A DNA stretch of 64,000 bases from Aerococcus mictus (GTDB lineage Bacteria; Bacillota; Bacilli; Lactobacillales; Aerococcaceae): contig NZ_CP132985.1 in the NCBI RefSeq assembly GCF_003286595.3, positions 1,736,001 through 1,800,000 of the forward strand. Direction: 5' to 3'. This document shows, piece after piece, positions 1,244-59,263 of this stretch. Positions within the stretch are counted from its first letter, which is position 1. Every line of letters begins with the position of its first letter. A program made the position numbers and the translations under genes. Under the pieces are notes generated by a model. The model saw only the letters and a list, made by a program, of their open reading frames with translations, was not told where the DNA came from and did no database searches.

Positions 1244-1263
1244 AAAAATACGAACTATCTAAT

Positions 1264-1504
1264 CAAAATGTGTTCCAGTCACAGGACGAACGTCCGCTTC
1301 ACCTAGGGTGTGAGACTTGGCGCCTAGGCTTGGATGATTGGAGCAAGTCAGAATAAGAGCGAAGTAATCGCTTGTTTCTGACTTGTGAAATCATTCCAAG
1401 TCTGCCAAGTCGAACCCAACTAAAAACTGGTAACGCTCAGACAAACTGAGCTTATGACAGTTTTCTCCAATGGTTTCGTCCTTTTTTGTGACTGTCGCAC
1501 TCTC
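1264..1504 (-). repeat. Family 1 structured repeat, one unit interrupted by about 120 bp
   Basis: Read on the minus strand it opens with GAGAGTGCGAC and closes with GGAACACATTTTG. Arms AGTCACA/TGTGACT and GGACGAA/TTCGTCC pair, and an apical hairpin (GCTCAG/CTGAGC-like) is present. The unit closely matches the second unit at 58333-58449 but is split just before TGAAGCGGA by about 120 bp (roughly 1302-1421), itself an extended hairpin with GACTTGGC/GCCAAGTC and CAAGTCAGAA/TTCTGACTTG arms. It starts 30 bases after the queT stop, in sense orientation. Confidence 0.8.
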
Positions 1505-15186: not shown

Positions 15187-15275
15187 GAGAGTGTGACAAG
15201 CGCAAAAAGAGGGAAACTTGGTATACAAAAAAGACTGGTTTTTATACCAGCCTTCTTAACTTTAGTCACACGCTT
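15187..15275. repeat. Probable decayed family 1 remnant
   Basis: GAGAGTGTGACAAGCGC at 15187-15203 is the same string that opens the family 1 unit downstream of rpoB. AGTCACACGC near 15265 could pair with it. The rest of the unit is missing and the rpoE terminator lies inside. Confidence 0.35.
15226..15255 (-). terminator. Terminator after rpoE
   Basis: Stem AAGGCTGGT/ACCAGTCTT with six T on the minus strand. Confidence 0.8.
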
Positions 15276-18845: not shown

Positions 18846-18867
18846 AAAAAAGCCTTCCCCACTTGAT
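18846..18867 (+). terminator. Left half of a bidirectional terminator split by an IS
   Basis: AAAAAAGCCTTCCC and the loop bases CACTTGAT. The other arm, GGGAAGGCTTTTTTT, is at 20529-20543. Rejoined, the two halves form a normal shared terminator for the convergent ywfO and aminotransferase genes. Confidence 0.8.
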
Positions 18868-18902
18868 ATGGTGACCCCAATAAGTTGGACTTTATATATA
18901 GT

Positions 18903-18929
18903 GAGTTGGCCTTTGGCCAGCTCTTTTTT
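18903..18929 (+). terminator. Terminator inside the left end of the IS
   Basis: GAGTTGGCC/GGCCAGCTC followed by six T on the plus strand. It would stop transcripts entering the IS from ywfO and protects the transposase from antisense read-in. Confidence 0.8.
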
Positions 18930-19040
18930 GTTGCTTACAGTTCTTGCTTATTTCTTGCCGACACATTTACTCAGAAATTTAAACTTGTCAAGAGGAAGAG
19001 CGTAGCGGCTCTTGATAAGTTTAAAGTTTATGTGTAATCA

Positions 19041-19931
19041 TTAAGCGGCGAAAGAAGCGTGATGAAGACGAAATTCTATAGGACTCCTAAAATCTAATTT
19101 TTCTTTGATTCTTTCACCATTGTAATAGATTATAAAATCTTCAATCGCTTGTGCTAATTCTTCAAAGGAATGATAAGTCCGACCATAGTAGACTTCTTGT
19201 TTTAGTAGACTAAAGAAATTCTCCATTGGCGAATTATCTAAGCAATTTCCTTTACGAGACATACTTTGAAAAATTCGGTGATCCTTCAAGAGCCGGGTGT
19301 AACTTTTCATTTGATAGGCCCAGCCCTGATCAGAATGAAAGGTTCTTCTGTATGGACATAATTTACTTGCTTCAATGGCAGCTTGTAGCCCCTCCAACAT
19401 GCTTTGTCCATTAGGCTGATGTGTTATCTTAAAAGAAATAATTTCTCGATTAAATAGATCCATGTAAGGATCTAAATAGAGTTTTCCAGTTTGATAATTC
19501 CCAGAATCATCGGCATAGTAGTATTTAAATTCTGTTGTGTCTGTTGTTATTTTTTGATAAGGAATGGTCGAATCAAACCGCCGGTTGATACGATTTGGCG
19601 CTATCTCTCCAATCGTTCCTTTGTAGGAATTATATTTTCTTGTCTTTCTAGTATAGCTAGTGACCTGTATCCCCATAATTTTCATTAGGCGTTGAACTTT
19701 GTTTTTACTGACCTTATAACCACGGGAAAGCAGTTCAGCTCGCATTCTTCGATAACCATAATCCTTATGGGTTTCTCTGATGTCTTTCATTTCCTCTTTT
19801 AAATCGGCATCCTTATCAATTTCCTCATCTTTATTTTTCCAATAAAAGTAGGTCGATTTAGGAAACTTTAAAACGCTAAGAATATCTTTTAAAGCATATT
19901 TTTCATCATGGAGACGTGTGATTTCGGTCAC
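19041..19931 (-). CDS. IS3-family transposase orfB (DDE integrase)
   Basis: The catalytic subunit, 296 residues. An N-terminal HTH_21 region (DIRETHKDYGYRRMRAELL) precedes the rve core with the first Asp in TDTTEFKY, the second in FHSDQGWAY and Glu in SPMENFFSLLKQE, so the DDE triad is complete. The frame opens with a GTG that overlaps the orfA stop (TAGTG), so it is made either by coupled initiation or by a -1 frameshift from orfA near the A-rich end of that gene, giving the OrfAB transposase. Confidence 0.93.
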   Translation of the reverse strand: MTEITRLHDEKYALKDILSVLKFPKSTYFYWKNKDEEIDKDADLKEEMKDIRETHKDYGYRRMRAELLSRGYKVSKNKVQRLMKIMGIQVTSYTRKTRKYNSYKGTIGEIAPNRINRRFDSTIPYQKITTDTTEFKYYYADDSGNYQTGKLYLDPYMDLFNREIISFKITHQPNGQSMLEGLQAAIEASKLCPYRRTFHSDQGWAYQMKSYTRLLKDHRIFQSMSRKGNCLDNSPMENFFSLLKQEVYYGRTYHSFEELAQAIEDFIIYYNGERIKEKLDFRSPIEFRLHHASFAA

Positions 19932-20467
19932 TATTTCTTCTTTTCTCGCTTGACTCTTTGAGCCACACGTCTCCTCAATCCTTTTAAAAATTTGTTCTCA
20001 ATTTCTAAATCCGTAATCCGTTGTTCAAGTTCCTTTATTTTTGCTTCACTTAACTGATTGGTTTCGCTGCTATCCTTTATTTGATTGATTTGTGATTTCT
20101 TTTTAGACACTTTAGGTGGCCTTCCTTTCCTCGCGGAAAGGCCATCAAGTCCTCTTTCATGATAAGCTCTTCGCCAATTAGCGATTAGACTTGGATTATT
20201 CATGTTTAATGAATTGGCCAATTCGCGATAACTCATTTCCGTACTTTCATACAATTCTATCGCATTTAATTTGAATTCAACAGTATAAACCTGTTGAGTC
20301 CGCCTTTTCTTTAAACCATCTACACCAAATTCATAATAGTTATTAACCCACCTTCGTAAAATAGAAGGATCTATTCCTGCTTTATTAGCTAAGGTTCGAT
20401 AACTTCCTTTTTTCGCAATATAGTCTCCTACTAAATTCAGTTTAAATTCTAATGAATATTTAGACAT
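19931..20467 (-). CDS. IS3-family orfA (helix-turn-helix subunit)
   Basis: A 178-residue DNA-binding subunit with two HTH_28/HTH_Tnp_1-like repeats (GSYRTLANKAGIDPSILRRW, then MSYRELANSLNMNNPSLIANW) and a C-terminal leucine-zipper-like segment (AKIKELEQRITDLEIENKF). It ends in a lysine-rich stretch at an A-rich sequence where frameshifting into orfB could occur. The ATG at 20467 with GGGGG 8 bases upstream is preferred over 20482. The start lies only about 50 bases inside the right IS end. Confidence 0.9.
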   Translation of the reverse strand: MSKYSLEFKLNLVGDYIAKKGSYRTLANKAGIDPSILRRWVNNYYEFGVDGLKKRRTQQVYTVEFKLNAIELYESTEMSYRELANSLNMNNPSLIANWRRAYHERGLDGLSARKGRPPKVSKKKSQINQIKDSSETNQLSEAKIKELEQRITDLEIENKFLKGLRRRVAQRVKREKKK

Positions 20468-20526
20468 AAAAATAACCCCCAAAAGTTGAATTCTTAGTCC
20501 AACTTTTGGGGGTCACTACACTTGAT

Positions 20527-20546
20527 GCGGGAAGGCTTTTTTTAGC
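20527..20546 (-). terminator. Right half of the IS-split terminator
   Basis: GCGGGAAGGCTTTTTTT, the partner arm of 18846-18859. With the IS present, transcripts of the aminotransferase gene no longer meet a nearby hairpin. Confidence 0.75.
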
Positions 20547-20592
20547 TTATGGTTTCATGTCTTTTATTGGTTTCCTAGATTCTAAAAAAGTT

Positions 20593-21746
20593 CTAGGCTA
20601 ATTGATCAACAAAGTTCTTTAGACGTTTCAATCCTTCTTGGATAGATTCGTAAGAAGAGGCGTAGGAGAAGCGGACATAGCCTTTACCGGCATTACCGAA
20701 GGCAAAGCCTGGTATCACCCCTACCTTGGCTTGGTGGGCTAGGTCAAGGGCAAATTGTTTGTCATCACCATGATATGATTCTGGTGCCTTGATAAAGATA
20801 TAGAAGGCTCCAGCTGGGTGAACAAATTCTAAACCAATCTTAGGTAATTCTTCTAAGAGCAGGTCGCGACGACTCTTAAATTTATCACGGGCTTCCACGA
20901 CAAAGTCATCACACTCATTATAGGCAGCGATGGCCCCGCCCCGTGTTGACCAGGGGTAGACACGCTGGTAACCATGGTTTGGTGGGAAACCAAGCCTTGG
21001 GTCACATAGCCATCAGGCATGTGGATGAAACCAATCCGAAGTCCGGTCATGGCGTAACTCTTGGAAGGACCATTGAGATAGATAGTTTGGTTGGGGATTT
21101 CATTGTAGATGGAATAATGGTCTTGGTCATAGATCATGTCTGAATAAATTTCATCACTAATGACAAAGACATCATAGCGCTTAATCACTTCGGCTAATTC
21201 ACGAATTTCATCCTTGGTATAGGTATTCCCAATCGGATTATTGGGGTAGTTTAGGAGGACTAAACGCGTCTCTGGGTTAGCATCCAAGCTCCGTTCCAAA
21301 GCCTTAGGAGTTAACTTGAAGTCGGTTTGGCTGGTATCTAAGGTTACCAATTCTGCCCCCGCAATCGCTGCTGTCATTTCATAAAGGCCAAAGAAAGGAG
21401 AAGGAACAATAATTTTATCGCCTTCATTAATGAAAACATCCATAGCGATCTTTACAGCTTCGGTGACTCCATTGGTAATAATCACATTATCAGCTTTTAA
21501 ATCAAGATCTTGGGTACGTTTAAAATAAGCAACGATGGCCTCGACCAATTCTCCAAGCCCCTTAGCTGATGCATAGTGGGTCTTATTTTCATCTAGAGCC
21601 TTTTTGATAGCGTCTTTAACCGTTTCAGGGGCGTTAAGATCAGGTTCCCCGATCGTGAAGGGAAGTAGACCATCAATTTGGGCAAAAGTTTCAGCAAACT
21701 CGCGAATAATGGAGGGGGCTGTATTTAAGTAACGATGATTAATTTT
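20593..21746 (-). pseudogene. Class I/II aminotransferase, frameshifted
   Basis: A PLP-dependent aminotransferase of the PatA/AspC type (about 385 residues if intact). The N-terminal 270 residues read well, with TNGVTEAVKIAMD, NYPNNPIGN, SDEIYSDMIY and the PLP lysine in GPSKSYAMTGLRIGF. The frame is lost after STPGQHGA and recovered in another frame as AIAAYNEC and FVVEARDKF onward to the stop at 20593. At the break GGGGC occurs twice in tandem (20935-20945); removing one copy restores QHGAIAAYNEC. Start is the GTG at 21746 with GGAAGG 7 bases upstream. As read, the enzyme should be dead. Confidence 0.85.
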
Positions 21747-24060: not shown

Positions 24061-24086
24061 ATGAAGACACTTATCCAATAATATCA

Positions 24087-24266
24087 TTGAGCATTCGTTA
24101 TGCTTTTGAAATTTCGTCGTTAAAAAGCCATGGCACCGGTTCGGACCTAGGTTCCTCACCTAGCGAGCCTCAAACGGCTAGTACGGCTAGCGCCTACTAT
24201 CCGATAATTCACATCGCTTGCTTGTTCATGGCTAACGACTCATTTCACAGCGTCACTACTGCTCAA
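24087..24266 (+). repeat. Family 2 structured repeat, copy 1
   Basis: About 180 bp closed by TTGAGCA/TGCTCAA. Inside, GTCGTT-AAAA-AGCCATG pairs with CATGGCT-AACGAC, TTCGGA pairs with TCCGAT, and TAGTA/TACTA encloses CGGCTAGCGCC. It matches 45843-46020 in constant blocks (AAAAGCCATGGCACCG, CTAGCGAGC, AATTCACATCGCTTGCTTG), while paired positions differ and stay complementary. A long frame crosses it but has no ribosome site. It lies in the 3' region of the oxidoreductase gene. Confidence 0.8.
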
Positions 24267-24334
24267 AACTATATAAAAATAGATTTTCTTCTTAAACAAG
24301 TCACCCACTATAAAAATAAAAGAAGAATATAAAA

Positions 24335-43050: not shown

Positions 43051-43136
43051 GCTGGTCGCCTCCATTTGTCTATTCAGCTCCAGGGCTGTCTGCACTGCAA
43101 GTATAACAAAGAATGAAAGCGCCTTAAAGTCAAAAA

Positions 43137-43255
43137 GAGTGCGACAGGCGCGTCAGAAGGCAAGACCACTGGAAGAAAAAGGCGTAAGAATTCTCAGAGA
43201 GAATTTGTCGTCATTTTCTGAAGTGGACGCTTGCCTTGCGCTTGGAGCACGTTTG
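43137..43255 (+). repeat. Family 1 structured repeat, tandem unit 1
   Basis: GAGTGCGAC to GGAGCACGTTTG. Arms AGGCAAG/CTTGCCT, AGAAAA/TTTTCT and an apical AATTCTC/GAGAATT hairpin flank the constant strings CTGGA and TGAAGTGGAC. Confidence 0.85.
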
Positions 43256-43259
43256 GCGA

Positions 43260-43365
43260 GAGTGCGACAAAAAGTGAAACGCTGGAAGAAATATGCGGTA
43301 ATCCTTGAAAAGGATTGCCAAATATTTCTGAAGCGGAGTTCACTTTTGTCAGCGAGCAGGTTTGG
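43260..43365 (+). repeat. Family 1 structured repeat, tandem unit 2
   Basis: GAGTGCGAC to GAGCAGGTTTG. Arms CAAAAAGTGAA/TTCACTTTTG, AGAAATAT/ATATTTCT and apical GGTAATCC/GGATTGCC, all different from unit 1 and all complementary. A degenerate third start, GGATGTGAGGA, follows at about 43369. Confidence 0.85.
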
Positions 43366-43437
43366 TAAGGATGTGAGGAAGGACCACCTTGGGAAAAAAA
43401 CGGCCCACGCACTCTCCACTTAAAACACATTTTTTGT

Positions 43438-45812: not shown

Positions 45813-45842
45813 GTTAATAATATTTTAAAGCAAATAATATTT

Positions 45843-46020
45843 GTGAGCTTGCGCTCTGCTTTTGAAATTTAGACGTTGAAAAGCCATGGCACCGACTCGA
45901 GCCAAGGTCTCTCGCCTAGCGAGCTTCAAACGGCTCGTACGGCTAAAGCCTACGAGTCGTAATTCACATCGCTTGCTTGTTCATGGCTAACGACCAACTT
46001 CAAAGCTTCACTCCAGCTCA
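45843..46020 (+). repeat. Family 2 structured repeat, copy 2
   Basis: About 178 bp closed by TGAGCT/AGCTCA. ACGTT-GAAA-AGCCATG pairs with CATGGCT-AACG, CGACTCG with CGAGTCG, and CTCGTA/TACGAG encloses CGGCTAAAGCC. The constant blocks equal those of 24087-24266. It starts 70 bases after the prepilin peptidase stop. Confidence 0.8.
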
Positions 46021-46104
46021 TAACTATTAACTAAAATTTATTGATAACTTGTCCTTAAATATAAAAATGAAATGACTATCAAAATATATTTATCTATAAA
46101 GAGA

Positions 46105-53377: not shown

Positions 53378-53464
53378 GAGGTCAACCTCCCTCATTAATC
53401 ACTGAAACTGCTAAGAGCTAGAGCAAATTGACATTATCCTTTTGAGTTTTATTACACTCTCTAG

Positions 53465-53581
53465 TTGAGTTCGGACGCCAGACTTGAAGTTGCTTCAGAA
53501 AATACCAACGCTCAGTCTTACTGTGCTTATGGTATTTTCCTCCAGCAATTCAAGTCTCTGACGGCGTCCTCTCATCCTTTA
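53465..53581 (-). repeat. Family 1 structured repeat, tandem unit 2, in the rpoB-rpoC gap
   Basis: On the minus strand GGACGCC/GGCGTCC and AGACTTGAA/TTCAAGTCT arms enclose GCTGGAG and TGAAGCAAC, with AAAATACC/GGTATTTT above. The 5' border is the degenerate GGATGAGAGGAC. Confidence 0.82.
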
Positions 53582-53750
53582 CAAACGTGTTCCAAGCGCA
53601 GAGCAAGCGTCCACTTCACTAAAGGTCGGCGAAGTCTCTTTGAGACTTCTTTCGCCCTTTAGCTCCAGTTGCTATAGCTGTAGGAAGCGTTAGCGACGTA
53701 CAGATATAGTATGCGTAGCGGTCTTGCTCTCTGACGCGCTTGTCACACTC
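53582..53750 (-). repeat. Family 1 structured repeat, tandem unit 1, in the rpoB-rpoC gap
   Basis: On the minus strand it runs from GAGTGTGAC, whose first G is the last base of the rpoB stop codon, to GGAACACGTTTG. Arms AAGCGC/GCGCTT, GAGCAAG/CTTGCTC, CTAAAG/CTTTAG and an apical AAGTCTC/GAGACTT enclose ACTGGAG and TGAAGTGGA. About 50 extra bases are inserted on the 5' side of the internal loop. Confidence 0.85.
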
Positions 53751-56700
53751 TATTCATTTGCTTGTTTTTTGGCGATGATTTCTTCGTCATTGCCTTCGCT
53801 TTGTTTTTCTTCTTGGTTCTTATCCTTGTCTTCATCTTCTTGTTCTTGGTTTTCTTTGTGATCACGACGGGTGACTTGGACTGGGTCTTCATCACGTAAG
53901 TCCAGTTCCTTATCGTTTTCATCGAGGACTTGGATATCTAAACCTAGGGATTGTAACTCTTTGACGAGCACGCGGAAGGATTCCGGCACACTTGGTTTAG
54001 GAATTGAGTCGCCTTTTACGATAGCTTCGTAGGTTTGCACCCGGCCAACCACGTCGTCTGATTTATAGGTAAGGATTTCTTGTAGGGTATAAGCCGCACC
54101 GTAAGCTTCCAGTGCCCAAACTTCCATTTCCCCGAAACGTTGTCCCCCAAATTGCGCTTTACCACCTAGTGGTTGTTGGGTAACTAGGGAGTAAGGTCCA
54201 ATCGAACGCGCATGGAGCTTGTCATCAACCATGTGGGAGAGTTTCAAGTAGTACATAACCCCTACAGAAACGCGGTTATCAAAAGGTTCACCGGTCCGAC
54301 CGTCGTAAAGCACGGTCTTAGCATCTTCAGCCATGCCGGCTTCTTTAACGGTTTCCCAAATGTCTTCATCTTGGGCCCCGTCAAATACAGGCGTTGCCAC
54401 GTGGATACCTAAGTTCCGAGCAGCCATCCCTAAGTGAAGTTCTAACACCTGTCCGATATTCATCCGGGAAGGCACCCCTAATGGGTTCAAGCAGATATCG
54501 ACTGGGGTACCATCTGGTAAGTAAGGCATGTCTTCTTCTGGTAAAACAATGGAGACAACCCCTTTGTTACCGTGACGACCAGCCATCTTATCCCCAACTT
54601 GAATCTTACGTTTTTGGATAATGTAAACCCGAACCATCATGGAAACACCAGGTTTGAGTTCGTCACCATTTTCCCGGTGGAAGACTTTAACGTCGTTAAC
54701 GATACCGCCACCACCATGAGGTACCCGTAAGGAAGTATCACGGACTTCACGGGCTTTTTCACCAAAGATGGCATGGAGTAGGTGTTCTTCAGGACTGAGT
54801 TCAGTCACACCTTTAGGGGTTACCTTACCCACTAAGATGTCGCCATCAGTAACTTCAGCACCGATGCGGATAATCCCGTTTTCATCGAGGTTACGGAGGG
54901 CATCTTCACCCACATTAGGAATTTCCCGGGTGATTTCTTCTGGCCCTAATTTAGTGTCACGGGCTTCAGATTCCAATTCGTCAATATGGATTGAGGTGTA
55001 GACGTCTTCTTTTACCAAACGTTCGGAAAGAACAACCGCGTCTTCATAGTTATAACCATCCCAGGTCATGAAGGCGATGATTGGGTTTTGTCCGAGGGCT
55101 AATTCCCCACCTTCCATAGAAGGTCCGTTGGCGAGGATTTCGTCCTTATCAACTTGGTCACCCTTACGTACCAATGGGGTTTGGTTATAGCAGGAGCTGG
55201 CGTTAGACCGGTAGAATTTCACTAATTCATACTTATCTAAGGCGCCTTCTTCAGTCCGGACGCGGATTTCACGAGCGTCGACATAGTCCACCACACCGGC
55301 CCGCTTACAGGTCACTGCAGCCCCAGAGTCATGGGCAGCCTTATATTCCATCCCAGTCCCTACTAAAGGTGCATGAGGGTTTAAGAGCGGCACTGCTTGC
55401 CGTTGCATGTTGGCCCCCATCAAGGCCCGGTTGGAGTCATCGTTTTCCAAGAAAGGAATACATGCTGTTGCGACAGAAACCACCTGTTTAGGGGAAACGT
55501 CCATGTAGTCGACTTCTTCTGGAGAAACTTCAATATTTTCTTCAATCTTACGTGCCATAATGGTATCGGTAGCAAAAGAACCATCTTCATTTAAAGGTGT
55601 GTTCCCTTGAGCGATAACAAAACGGTCTTCTTCATCCGCCGTTAGGTAGTCAATCTTATCGGTAACCTTATGGGTATTCCAGTCTACCCGACGGTATGGG
55701 GTTTCAATGAAACCAAAGTCATTAATCTTAGCATAGGTTGCCAAGGAGTTAATCAGACCAATGTTAGGTCCTTCAGGGGTTTCAATTGGACACATCCGAC
55801 CATAGTGAGAGTAGTGAACGTCACGCACTTCATAACCGGCACGGTCCCGGGTCAAACCACCGGGCCCCAAGGCAGAGAGACGACGTTTGTGCGTCAACTC
55901 AGAAAGTGGGTTGTTTTGGTCCATGAATTGGGACAATTGGGAGGACCCAAAGAATTCACGAATCGATGCAACCACTGGGCGGATATTAATCAATTGTTGG
56001 GGGGTAACTGTATCGATGTCTTGGATAGACATTCTCTCTCTTACCACTCGTTCCATCCGGCTTAAACCGATCCGAAGTTGGTTTTGTAATAATTCACCCA
56101 CAGAGCGGATCCGACGGTTACCCAAGTGGTCGATATCGTCGGTAGTTCCTAGACCTTCATAGAGGTTTAAGAAGTAGTTCATCGCGGTTAAGACGTCAGC
56201 AACGGTTAGAGACTTGTAGTCGGAATTTTGCATAGCGTTACCGATCACATGAACCACACGTTCTGGGTCCTTAGGTGCCACAATCTTAATTAATTGGATG
56301 TCAACAGGATCAGTGATCACCGCATCATCATTTGGATAAACGGTCACTAAACCGAGACCATTATCTAACTTGTCGCTAATGTCATCTAAGACTTCACGGG
56401 TGAAAACTGTCCCTGCTTCCAGGACAATTTCACCAGTCTCATTGTCGACTAAGTTTTCTGCTAGGGTTTGTTTATATAGACGGGATTTTAAGTCTAATTT
56501 CTTATTGATCTTGTAGCGTCCGACAGCAGCCAAGTCATAACGACGTGGGTCGAAGAAACGCGTATTTAATAAGTTACGGGAGGATTCTGCGGTTTTTGGT
56601 TCACCAGGACGGAGGCGCTCATAAATATCTTTTAAGGCTTCTTCAGTCCGGGAGTCCGATGGGTTTTTGTGGACATCTTTTTCTAAGGTTAAACTCAGGG

Positions 56701-57688: not shown

Positions 57689-58210
57689 ATGGCTATAGAA
57701 CGTGCAATCTTTGCGGGAGGCTGTTTCTGGTGCATGGTCCAACCCTTCGACCAATTGCCAGGAATTGAAGCGGTCGTTTCTGGTTATACAGGAGGACACA
57801 TCGCTAACCCCAGCTATCAAGAAGTCAAAAGTGGTAAAACCGGCCACACGGAAGCGGTAGAGATCAGCTTCGATAACGCCATCATCACCTACGAAGAGTT
57901 ACTGGAGATTTACTGGCAACAAACCGACCCTACCGACGCTATGGGCCAGTTTGAAGACCGGGGTTCATCATACCGTCCCGAGATCTTCTACTTATCTGAA
58001 GACCAACGCCAAGCCGCTGAAGCTTCCAAAGCAGCCCTAGCCGCTAGCGGGCGTTTCGATGACCCCATCGTCACCCAAATCACCCCCGCCGGCCCCTTCT
58101 ACCCAGCAGAAGACTACCACCAAGACTTCTATAAGAAGAGCCCCGATAAATACCAAGCCGACGAAAGCGCCATCGCCCGCCACCAATTTATTGAAGACAA
58201 ATGGAAATAA
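57689..58210 (+). CDS. msrA: Peptide methionine sulfoxide reductase MsrA
   Basis: Reduces the S form of methionine sulfoxide in proteins; 173 residues. [12 protein letters not shown] at the start has the catalytic Cys in GCFW, followed by GYTGGH and the YHQDFY region near residue 150. The ATG at 57689 follows GGAAGGA. It lacks an MsrB fusion. A family 1 repeat pair starts 2 bases after its stop. Confidence 0.95.
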
Positions 58211-58212
58211 GA

Positions 58213-58328
58213 GAGTGCGACGGGTGCACCAAAGATCGATAACACTGGAGCTAAAGAGCAAAAATTCTTGAAAAGAATTTCTTGCACTTTAGTGAAGTGG
58301 AGAGCGATCTGCACCCGGAGCACGTTTG
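58213..58328 (+). repeat. Family 1 structured repeat, tandem unit 1
   Basis: GAGTGCGAC to GGAGCACGTTTG. Arms GGGTGC/GCACCC, AGATCG/CGATCT, CTAAAG/CTTTAG and apical AAATTCTT/AAGAATTT enclose the constant ACTGGAG and TGAAGTGGA. Confidence 0.88.
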
Positions 58329-58332
58329 AAAA

Positions 58333-58449
58333 GAGTGCGACAGTCACAATAAAGGACGAAATCGCTGGAGAAAATTGGTATAAGCTCAGTGAAGCTGAGC
58401 GTTACCAGTTTTTGAAGTGGACGTTCGTCCTGTGACTGGAGCAGGTTTG
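58333..58449 (+). repeat. Family 1 structured repeat, tandem unit 2
   Basis: GAGTGCGAC to GGAGCAGGTTTG. Arms AGTCACA/TGTGACT, GGACGAA/TTCGTCC, AAAATTGGTA/TTACCAGTTTT and apical GCTCAG/CTGAGC. Nearly the same sequence as the uninterrupted parts of 1264-1504. Confidence 0.88.
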
Positions 58450-58473
58450 AAGAGTATGTGACATTCATAAAAT

Positions 58474-58512
58474 AAAACCAGCAGGATGTAGTGAACTCCT
58501 GCTGGTTTTTAC
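58474..58512. terminator. Bidirectional terminator between msrA and the GDPD gene
   Basis: AAAACCAGCAGGA/TCCTGCTGGTTTT. The repeats at 58213-58449 lie upstream of it, inside the msrA transcript. Confidence 0.9.
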
Positions 58513-58528
58513 TTTTTCACATAATCTG

Positions 58529-59263
58529 TTAATAACTGGCCAAAACGGGAGCACTTTCTAGGTAGTGACTATCATTGGTAATCACGCCCGCCAGGCCCCA
58601 GTCCTTAAATTTTCGGTAGGCCTTACGATCGTCGACCGTCCATGCATTAATCTTAACCCCGTGGTCATGCAAGTTGTTCACCGTCGTTGGGTCAAGCAGC
58701 TTATAGTCAGGATGGTAGTAGTCCACTCCCCTAGCAGCGCAATAGGTCCCTGGATTTTCTAGATAGTCTTCCTGTAAGAAGGCGCAAGCCAGATGAGGGG
58801 CTAGGGCCTTGACCTTAAGGATACTCTGGTGGTTAAAAGAAGAGATAATCACCCGGTCTTGCATCTGATAGTCTTCTACCAAGTCAACCACCGCTTCCAC
58901 TAAGCCAGGATAAGGAAAAAGCCCCGTCTTTAATTCAATATTCAAGGTCAACTCCAAGGGCTGAGCCCAGGCTAATAGCTCACTTAAATGGGGAATACGA
59001 ACTAAGTCAAGGTTAACGTTCTGAGGGTGGAGGCGGTCAAAGCGAAGGCCACGCAAGTCCGCGTATTTATAGTCTCGTAGCCAGCCCCTAGCATTGGCAG
59101 TCCGGTCTAAGCGCTCATCGTGGCAAATCACCACCTGGCCATCCAGGGTCAATTGGACATCACATTCAATCCCATCCGCCCCAGCTTCATAAGCCTTAAT
59201 AAAGGACAGCATGGTATTTTCCGGATAGCGGGCGCTATAGCCACGGTGGGCATATAATTTCAT
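58529..59263 (-). CDS. Glycerophosphodiester phosphodiesterase
   Basis: Hydrolyses glycerophosphodiesters to glycerol 3-phosphate and an alcohol; 244 residues, cytosolic (no signal). AHRGYSARYPENTMLSF at the start has the catalytic His and metal ligands, GIECDVQLTLDGQVVICHDE follows, and LNIELKTG and NAWTVDD complete the site. The ATG at 59263 has AAGGAG about 13 bases upstream; no better start is seen. Confidence 0.93.
   Translation of the reverse strand: MKLYAHRGYSARYPENTMLSFIKAYEAGADGIECDVQLTLDGQVVICHDERLDRTANARGWLRDYKYADLRGLRFDRLHPQNVNLDLVRIPHLSELLAWAQPLELTLNIELKTGLFPYPGLVEAVVDLVEDYQMQDRVIISSFNHQSILKVKALAPHLACAFLQEDYLENPGTYCAARGVDYYHPDYKLLDPTTVNNLHDHGVKINAWTVDDRKAYRKFKDWGLAGVITNDSHYLESAPVLASY

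Follow-up and report, generated by a model that had tools for sequence, protein, structure and literature searches.

What kind of element keeps its borders and its unpaired bases while the helices between them change completely? The question arises behind the msrA gene of Aerococcus mictus, where two adjacent repeat units occupy positions 58,213-58,449 of the 64-kb stretch of DNA analyzed here (the window). A preliminary description of the locus had named shared borders, an internal-loop motif and four stem pairs, had counted seven such units in the window, and had read the compensatory changes in their stems as selection on an RNA structure, carried either by BOX-like mobile cassettes or by a regulatory or ligand- or protein-binding RNA.

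The borders GAGTGCGAC and GGAGCA[C/G]GTTTG, the CTGGAG / TGAAGTGGA motif and the four stem pairs are all present at this locus. The sequence TGAAGTGGA was found 4 times in the window, compared with 0.61 expected, and 0 of 100 shuffles reached four or more; GAGTGNGAC was found 8 times (0.85 expected); six of these sites belong to units, another to a truncated start (15,189), and the last (4,921) is unrelated. Units 1 and 2 are each predicted to fold as a single hairpin (-53.2 and -56.1 kcal/mol, respectively, for 131 nt each including flanks). We built a covariance model from three window units (R1) and a broader model from 73 matches (R2). Each of the seven units counted previously was recovered, together with an eighth that is nested in the unit at 1.3 kb, and R2 gives eight units in the 64-kb window. 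The units and their fragments are the following, in window coordinates.

58211..58330, plus strand: unit 1, with outer stems GGGTGCA and GATCG and inner module GCTAAAG, beginning directly 3' of the msrA stop codon (R1, 126.6 bits).
58331..58451, plus strand: unit 2, with outer stems AGTCACA and GGACGAA and inner module GAAAATTGG, in direct tandem with unit 1 (R1, 115.2 bits).
58452..58469, plus strand: truncated third unit at the array end, 5' border and one arm only, with a terminator-like hairpin on its 3' side (both by eye).
43135..43257, plus strand: unit 3 (R1, 123.2 bits).
43258..43366, plus strand: unit 4, forming a tandem with unit 3; a deletion leaves the outer P2 stem unaligned to the model (R1, 62.0 bits).
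43367..43390, plus strand: truncated start of a subfamily-B unit at the array end (by eye).
53580..53752, minus strand: unit 5, between rpoB and rpoC, overlapping the TAG stop codon of rpoB (R1, 64.4 bits).
53671..53719, minus strand: optional extra hairpin of unit 5, at the P3/P4 junction.
53460..53579, minus strand: unit 6, subfamily B, with borders GGATGAGAG / CGAACTCAACTA, in tandem with unit 5 (R1, 60.4 bits; R2, 82.7 bits).
1263..1504, minus strand: unit 7, downstream of a queT-like gene and interrupted by a nested unit (R1, 35.3 bits, partial; R2, 47.8 bits).
1304..1424, plus strand: unit 8, with GGGTGTGAG borders, inserted within unit 7 in the opposite direction (R1, 51.9 bits; R2, 91.0 bits).
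15187..15210, plus strand: lone truncated unit start.

Other features were seen in the same DNA. A PreQ1 riboswitch (Rfam) lies at 2044-2088, upstream of the queT-like transporter gene (Pfam QueT). A second dispersed repeat of about 200 nt, CCATGGCACCG ... TTCATGGCTAACGAC, occurs at 24077-24272 and 45833-46027; the two window copies are 82-88% alike, further copies exist in the relatives UMB3669 and G414, and some copies bear the extra 50-nt hairpin or a nested GGGTGTGAG unit. A 1.7-kb stretch at 18866-20603 contains two minus-strand ORFs (296 and 183 aa), ends in GTGACCCC/GGGGTCAC and is missing at the same site in UMB3669 and G414; it resembles an IS3-type insertion.

The suggestion that the units belong to no named family was supported at the level of Rfam, since no match reached the gathering threshold at the window units and the sub-threshold matches at 58,150-58,550 were unconvincing. 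Thirteen further loci compared with Rfam gave a T-box as the sole match, beside and not at the unit of locus L192, and literature searches naming Aerococcus found no paper on such repeats among the records listed.

The element is about 105-125 nt long; some copies have an additional side hairpin of 50 nt, and in some relatives a terminator-like hairpin lies behind the unit. From the outside inward, a unit consists of P1 (GTGY/RCAC), a tandem GA/GA, P2, a 5' bulge of 5-6 nt, P3, P4 (CACT/AGTG), a GGA/GA junction, P5 and a terminal hairpin, P6. The constant internal loop of the preliminary description therefore had to be redrawn: the GGA/GA and the tandem GA/GA beside P2 are unpaired and constant, whereas CACT/AGTG is a helix (P4) with covarying pairs. 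Among 52 divergent units, GGA/GA is conserved in 51-52 of 52, the 5' GA in 50 and 51, and the 3' GA in 44 and 46. Mean entropy in these 52 units was 0.22 bits at junction columns, which were named after the consensus had been seen, versus 1.47 bits in the stems. Subfamily B (GGATGTGAG or GGGTGTGAG to CGAACYCAACTA) has the same core as the other units. In 1.2 Mb of DNA, 26 of 30 occurrences of the extra 50-nt hairpin were within units of both subfamilies at P3/P4 (22 recognized by script and 4 read from the listing), and the remaining 4 adjoin a different repeat. On the 3' side, a spacer and a terminator-like hairpin that exists in a few sequence variants follow 20 of 20 copies read in G450 and 7 of 10 in G406. 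In 15 of the 20 G450 copies (loci L113-L132), the spacer before this hairpin contains TTATTCG, a second copy of part of the 3' arm of P5 that could pair with the 5' arm CGAATAA; an alternative fold is possible for these copies, and they might be read as attenuators.

The claim that compensatory change maintains the stems was borne out by two tests and by a direct view at one orthologous site, rpoB-rpoC, described below. When 70 matches (60 distinct) were aligned by structure, 90.1% of the cells were paired, compared with 58.3% in shuffles, and the covariation score was 0.765, compared with 0.199 for shuffled and at most 0.109 for slid alignments. Change on both sides was found at 44 of 44 pairs in this alignment, a measure that says little by itself because shuffles reach 38.5 of 44. 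Since a structure-fitted alignment leans to its model, we redid the test without structure, using a MAFFT alignment of 52 units, a tree from FastTree and a null of 60 alignments in which both the tree and the substitutions on each branch were preserved. These units derive from 133 pooled rows, of which 115 were retained after keeping lengths of 100-130 nt and taking out four named rows (one wrong-strand match and three misaligned through the extra hairpin), 53 at a redundancy of 0.80, and 52 after removal of a mis-hit (window:1395-1504). Nineteen column pairs passed E = 0.05, all in P2, P3, P4 and P5 and none elsewhere, with the caveat that module exchange between copies violates the single-tree assumption of the test; pairs in P1 and P6 were below significance. 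Covariation thus exceeded phylogenetic expectation under a tree-preserving null, as computed with an R-scape-like script of our own.

Helices contained 51 G.U and 17 A.C oppositions (P = 4e-5, the cells not being independent). From this asymmetry we conclude that the written strand is the folded strand, and a plain double-stranded DNA repeat with no preferred folded strand is disfavored by the same count, subject to the same dependence between cells. Together, these data support selection on structure. Paired bases that change around fixed unpaired ones suggest that whatever moves or uses the element recognizes its folded shape, not its sequence.

Both models recovered many further copies in the window and its relatives when used for the genome search that had been proposed as a check. 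The RpoB proteins of the window and of A. tenax UMB3669 share 99.7% identity; DNA blocks of the window are 91-97% identical to UMB3669 and 90-95% to G414, and the blocks aligned between G414 and A. tenax have identities of 80-95%. Record CP127381.1, 592 kb from A. tenax, is labeled 'plasmid unnamed1'; the dnaA, rpoB and rpoC genes and the ribosomal operons that it bears indicate that it is probably a piece of the chromosome. R2 found 64 matches in the 592 kb of A. tenax UMB3669 and, at E 1e-5, 121 units in the 1.21 Mb of the window, UMB3669 and G414 combined. Of the 76 genomes in the family of G272, R1 matched 28; this family is probably Aerococcaceae, because its member G414 aligns to the window and to A. 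tenax. At most 47 candidates were scored per genome in this survey, which makes per-genome counts lower bounds, as in G414, G406 and G407, each at or near 47 scored candidates with R1.

Across 398 genomes of the class Bacilli, surveyed with stricter filters that lose weak matches, R1 matched 2 (G272 and G388) and R2 matched 6 (five besides G272). Of 22 genomes from the genus of G388, 14 had R2 matches, and a copy from this genus resembles plasmid elements at 60-80% identity, in 107 Enterococcus and 3 Lactococcus records of 110. G388 also has another type of element, L056: R1 gives it 26.7 bits, R2 does not match it at E 1, and it matches 59 plasmid records, 48 of them from Enterococcus. On one E. 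faecium plasmid, a weak member of the family (23.7 bits) stands right before an L056-type unit, behind which lies a further hairpin. Plasmid searches with a G450 unit and with two units from other Bacilli gave no match. Other Bacilli, too, have units of about 117-125 nt with a CACTGGA / GAAGTG core in tandem: at L190 in G208, where the units are near-identical to each other, and at G279:C1:1861949-1862422, an array read at one locus, L192.

Sites differ between these close relatives. The msrA-gdpd site has two units and a stub in the window, only the stub in UMB3669 and half a unit in G414; at the site of the lone truncated start of the window (15187..15210), UMB3669 has two units and G414 has units too. 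Between rpoB and rpoC, a unit stands at the same place in the window, UMB3669 and G414, but its type differs. Of 169 positions, 17 distinguish the window allele there from that of UMB3669; the core of 115 nt accounts for 1 of these and the outer parts for the rest, with 10 on the 5' side and 6 on the 3' side. A 123-nt full unit of G414 is absent at the aligned site of UMB3669, where one copy of the direct repeat TAGAGTGCGACAAGCG remains; this pattern reads equally as an insertion or as a deletion between repeats, and presence/absence between relatives could more generally also come from deletion between short direct repeats. Nesting is recurrent. By eye, a subfamily-B unit lies in the hairpin tip of another unit in seven cases, in one of which the right half belongs to another unit type and for another of which an empty counterpart exists. 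Three other nested units (window 1304 and two in G414) are not in a tip and lie beside a TGAAG motif.

The element is thus observed in many copies, differing at the same sites between sister species, arranged in tandem, nested, exchanging modules by both arms at once (see below) and covarying in its helices. The simplest account of the number of copies, their gain and loss, their nesting and modularity, and the conservation of their fold is a mobile hairpin with fold-dependent mobility or maintenance. The 'BOX-like mobile cassettes' of the preliminary description agree well with high copy number, presence/absence between relatives, nesting and modularity; of its overall interpretation, selection on structure, the lack of an Rfam family and BOX-like mobility were supported, and a ligand-binding or regulatory RNA gained no support from the tests run. 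We consider that the units are probably non-autonomous mobile hairpin elements of the BOX/EFAR type, propagated via a folded single strand. The copying or inserting step would act on one folded strand, either single-stranded DNA or RNA, and would recognize the fixed G.A junctions and the helix geometry. Stem sequence would be free to drift or to be swapped, provided that both arms match. Insertion would take place preferentially at the ends of genes and in hairpin tips, as the least harmful sites, and the copies may be tolerated by the host as 3'-UTR hairpins.

A bolder version, which we advance tentatively, is that the address of the element is its structure: machinery would read the tandem G.A junctions and the helix lengths instead of terminal sequences and insert the element in hairpin tips and at gene ends, and stems would be replaceable wholesale, both arms at once, giving rise to nested and tandem arrays in Aerococcaceae, enterococci and some other Bacilli. 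Such an element might pass through an RNA intermediate.

We then considered whether the units are instead maintained by the host. In the window, UMB3669 and G414, 64 of 66 arrays are intergenic by our own ORF calls (genes of at least 90 aa). The array set comprises 103 entries, with the four window sites entered as one span each, three wrong-strand matches and one weak match left out, and orthologous sites in the three relatives counted separately; it predates R2, which gave 121 units in the same DNA. Forty-six of the 66 arrays lie in sense behind a gene, and 25 of these 46 start at most 10 nt from the stop codon, some overlapping it (raw count; 16 of 27 in G414, 7 of 16 in UMB3669 and 2 of 3 in the window). 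In codirectional gaps, the sense:antisense ratio was 31:13 (P = 0.01), with 20:4 in G414 and 9:9 in UMB3669. Convergent versus divergent gaps (15:7) did not differ significantly from the background (P = 0.12).

A 3'-UTR or intercistronic hairpin (rpoB-rpoC, rplL) bound by a protein or an RNase, tuning mRNA stability and having spread because it is useful, would agree with this placement close behind genes, with selection on structure and a single folded strand, and with the presence of the rpoB-rpoC unit in all three relatives. There is a possible precedent in Bacillus cereus, where, according to PMC3446304, genes cotranscribed with bcr3 had longer mRNA half-lives, a result that its authors did not regard as conclusive. 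Such a host-maintained RNA element nevertheless appears unlikely to us, since sites and unit types vary between sister species, 20 of the 66 arrays lie elsewhere than in sense behind a gene, UMB3669 has no sense bias in codirectional gaps, and nesting interrupts individual units. The tests that we ran likewise gave no support for a ligand-binding or regulatory RNA, the arrays occurring in both orientations; some role as RNA may still exist.

Matched arms could also arise with no function at all. Quasi-palindrome correction is template switching within one hairpin; through it, one arm would be rewritten from the other, and modules would be shuffled when copies recombine. Among the 121 units, arms pair at 75% or more in P2 for 109, in P3 for 106 and in P5 for 104, and the types of P2, P3 and P5 combine in several ways with their arms still matched. 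Twenty-four of the 121 score below 0.6 in P2, P3 or P5, by eye mostly through an extra hairpin, a nested unit or a deletion. L111:33426 is, by eye, a hybrid with arms of two types, unflagged by the script. In the right flank of L112:26090, a mini-unit was observed in which GAGTGTGAC is joined straight to TGGAACACG, with a similar one after L112:32362; in the former, a whole hairpin looks to have been deleted between direct repeats TGTGAC. The hybrid unit, a mini-unit that by eye fits deletion between 6-nt direct repeats, and the joint change of both arms at rpoB-rpoC are all what correction and recombination would produce. However, arm correction would be expected to remove the mismatched junctions as well, whereas GGA/GA and GA/GA rank with the best-conserved positions when genomes are compared, and the excess of G.U over A.C also speaks against it; we hold this explanation to be rather unlikely.

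The ends of the units bear on a more conventional kind of mobility. RUP is said to be a MITE of an IS630-type element, and the present units might similarly be MITEs of an ordinary DDE insertion sequence, palindromic merely because inverted ends fill them; this would share mobility with a mobile hairpin and differ in what is recognized. Size, intergenic placement and copy number fit, and so does a candidate 4-bp target duplication, CTTC, seen in a single case (window 1.3 kb versus G414). Beyond this candidate, no clear target-site duplication was found at the junctions compared, and we dropped the idea of a universal 4-bp duplication. In addition, the end regions vary by subfamily and the adjoining stems covary, leaving the units with no long terminal inverted repeat that is fixed, nor was an insertion sequence with such ends noticed in passing; a DDE-type MITE is improbable. 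Integron attC sites have the core box consensus GTTRRRY, which the 3' border GTTTGAA of the units misfits by eye.

To find candidate machinery, we searched for split units and for two classes of protein. In 1.2 Mb, 15 pairs of matching P2 arms were found, 6 of them 1.6-4.7 kb apart. In the five distant pairs that were checked, the 3' half had its own 5' border in 5 of 5 and the 5' half its own 3' border in 4 of 5; these five look like chance pairs of separate units. Y1 transposase (PF01797) occurs in 36 of the 76 genomes of the family, including the element-rich G450, G436, G438 and G463, and has no match in the element-rich G414, G406, G407 and G416, which include the three genomes with the highest numbers of matches to the element; RAYT/IS200 was therefore rejected as a general mobilizer. 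Group II maturase reverse transcriptase (RT) exceeds the cut-off in 13 of 76 genomes, including G414, G436, G438 and G450; it is absent over the cut-off from G406, G407 and G416, with weak RT-like matches only in G406 and G407, and was rejected in the same role. As other element-rich genomes carry them, Y1 and group II RT are excluded solely for the genomes that lack them. Neither an ORF-bearing version of the element nor a mobilizing protein was found in the split-unit, Y1 and group II searches. A bacterial SINE-like retroelement would spread by reverse transcription of its folded RNA, with insertion where gene ends are rich in A. It would accord with the strand-specific fold, the 3' gene-end placement, the A-rich left flanks and the 3' terminator-like hairpins of G450 and G406, but it is very improbable, since the copy-rich G406, G407 and G416 are without group II RT over the cut-off and the G450 copies have no common tail past the hairpin.

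Returning to a mobile hairpin, we compared the family with known repeats. It has the traits of bacterial MITEs in being shorter than 200 bp, non-coding, dispersed in many mostly intergenic copies, and present or absent at orthologous sites, where insertion and deletion are not always separable. EFAR of Enterococcus faecalis was reportedly described by Venditti et al. in 2007; such repeats are put together from sequence types in varying combinations and insert into host stem-loops, of which parts of the stem persist. This assembly resembles the mixing of P2, P3 and P5 types here, and the stem-loop targets would fit the tip insertions seen by eye. G450 copies appeared by eye to lie within split host terminators (L127, L129), but flank complementarity, as expected of retained host stems, failed a permutation test around 20 copies (P = 0.08). 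Efa-1 of E. faecalis is intergenic, 163 nt long and made of a pair of adjacent stem-loops according to Cozzuto et al. 2008 (PMC2267715). Efa-1/EFAR are thus likewise intergenic hairpin repeats of similar size, and the double stem-loop so described is reminiscent of a unit plus the terminator-like hairpin in G450 and G406; in contrast, window units 1, 3 and 5 have another unit behind them instead. A direct equation with E. faecalis EFAR was unsupported by R2: three L056-type copies in 42 kb of E. faecalis and E. faecium score 17-22 bits, and no match at E 1e-3 was obtained in any of four Enterococcus records, which include 747 kb of E. faecalis. A point in common is the E. faecium plasmid on which a weak family member and a unit of this type stand in tandem. 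Kinship to Efa-1/EFAR is plausible, and the L056-type copies may themselves be EFAR.

The BOX repeats of Streptococcus pneumoniae are modular, dispersed, intergenic and predicted to fold, and BOX, RUP and SPRITE cluster and insert into each other (PMC3049150). By this description, BOX resembles the present family in organization only: its modules were defined there with sequence HMMs, and the stems here differ wholly around fixed unpaired junctions. The bcr repeats of the Bacillus cereus group are MITE-like, intergenic and often parts of UTRs, with conserved RNA structure in bcr10 and bcr18; the sections of PMC3446304 used here make no mention of tandem or nested hairpin units. YPAL and ERIC of enterobacteria are 100- to 200-bp repeats whose transcripts are highly base-paired long stem-loops (PMC2229807). 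They belong to other hosts, and stem covariation or module exchange is unmentioned in the part of that source used for comparison.

Miniature hairpin repeats are usually defined by sequence. Here it is structure that defines one family across genera, and a covariance model therefore unites copies with wholly different stems. At rpoB-rpoC, both outer arms have changed around an almost identical core, which makes the folded strand directly testable as a substrate of mobility. The units may have a function at the RNA level. As arrays lie between or behind core genes (rpoB, rplL, lysS), they may affect gene expression in these urinary bacteria.
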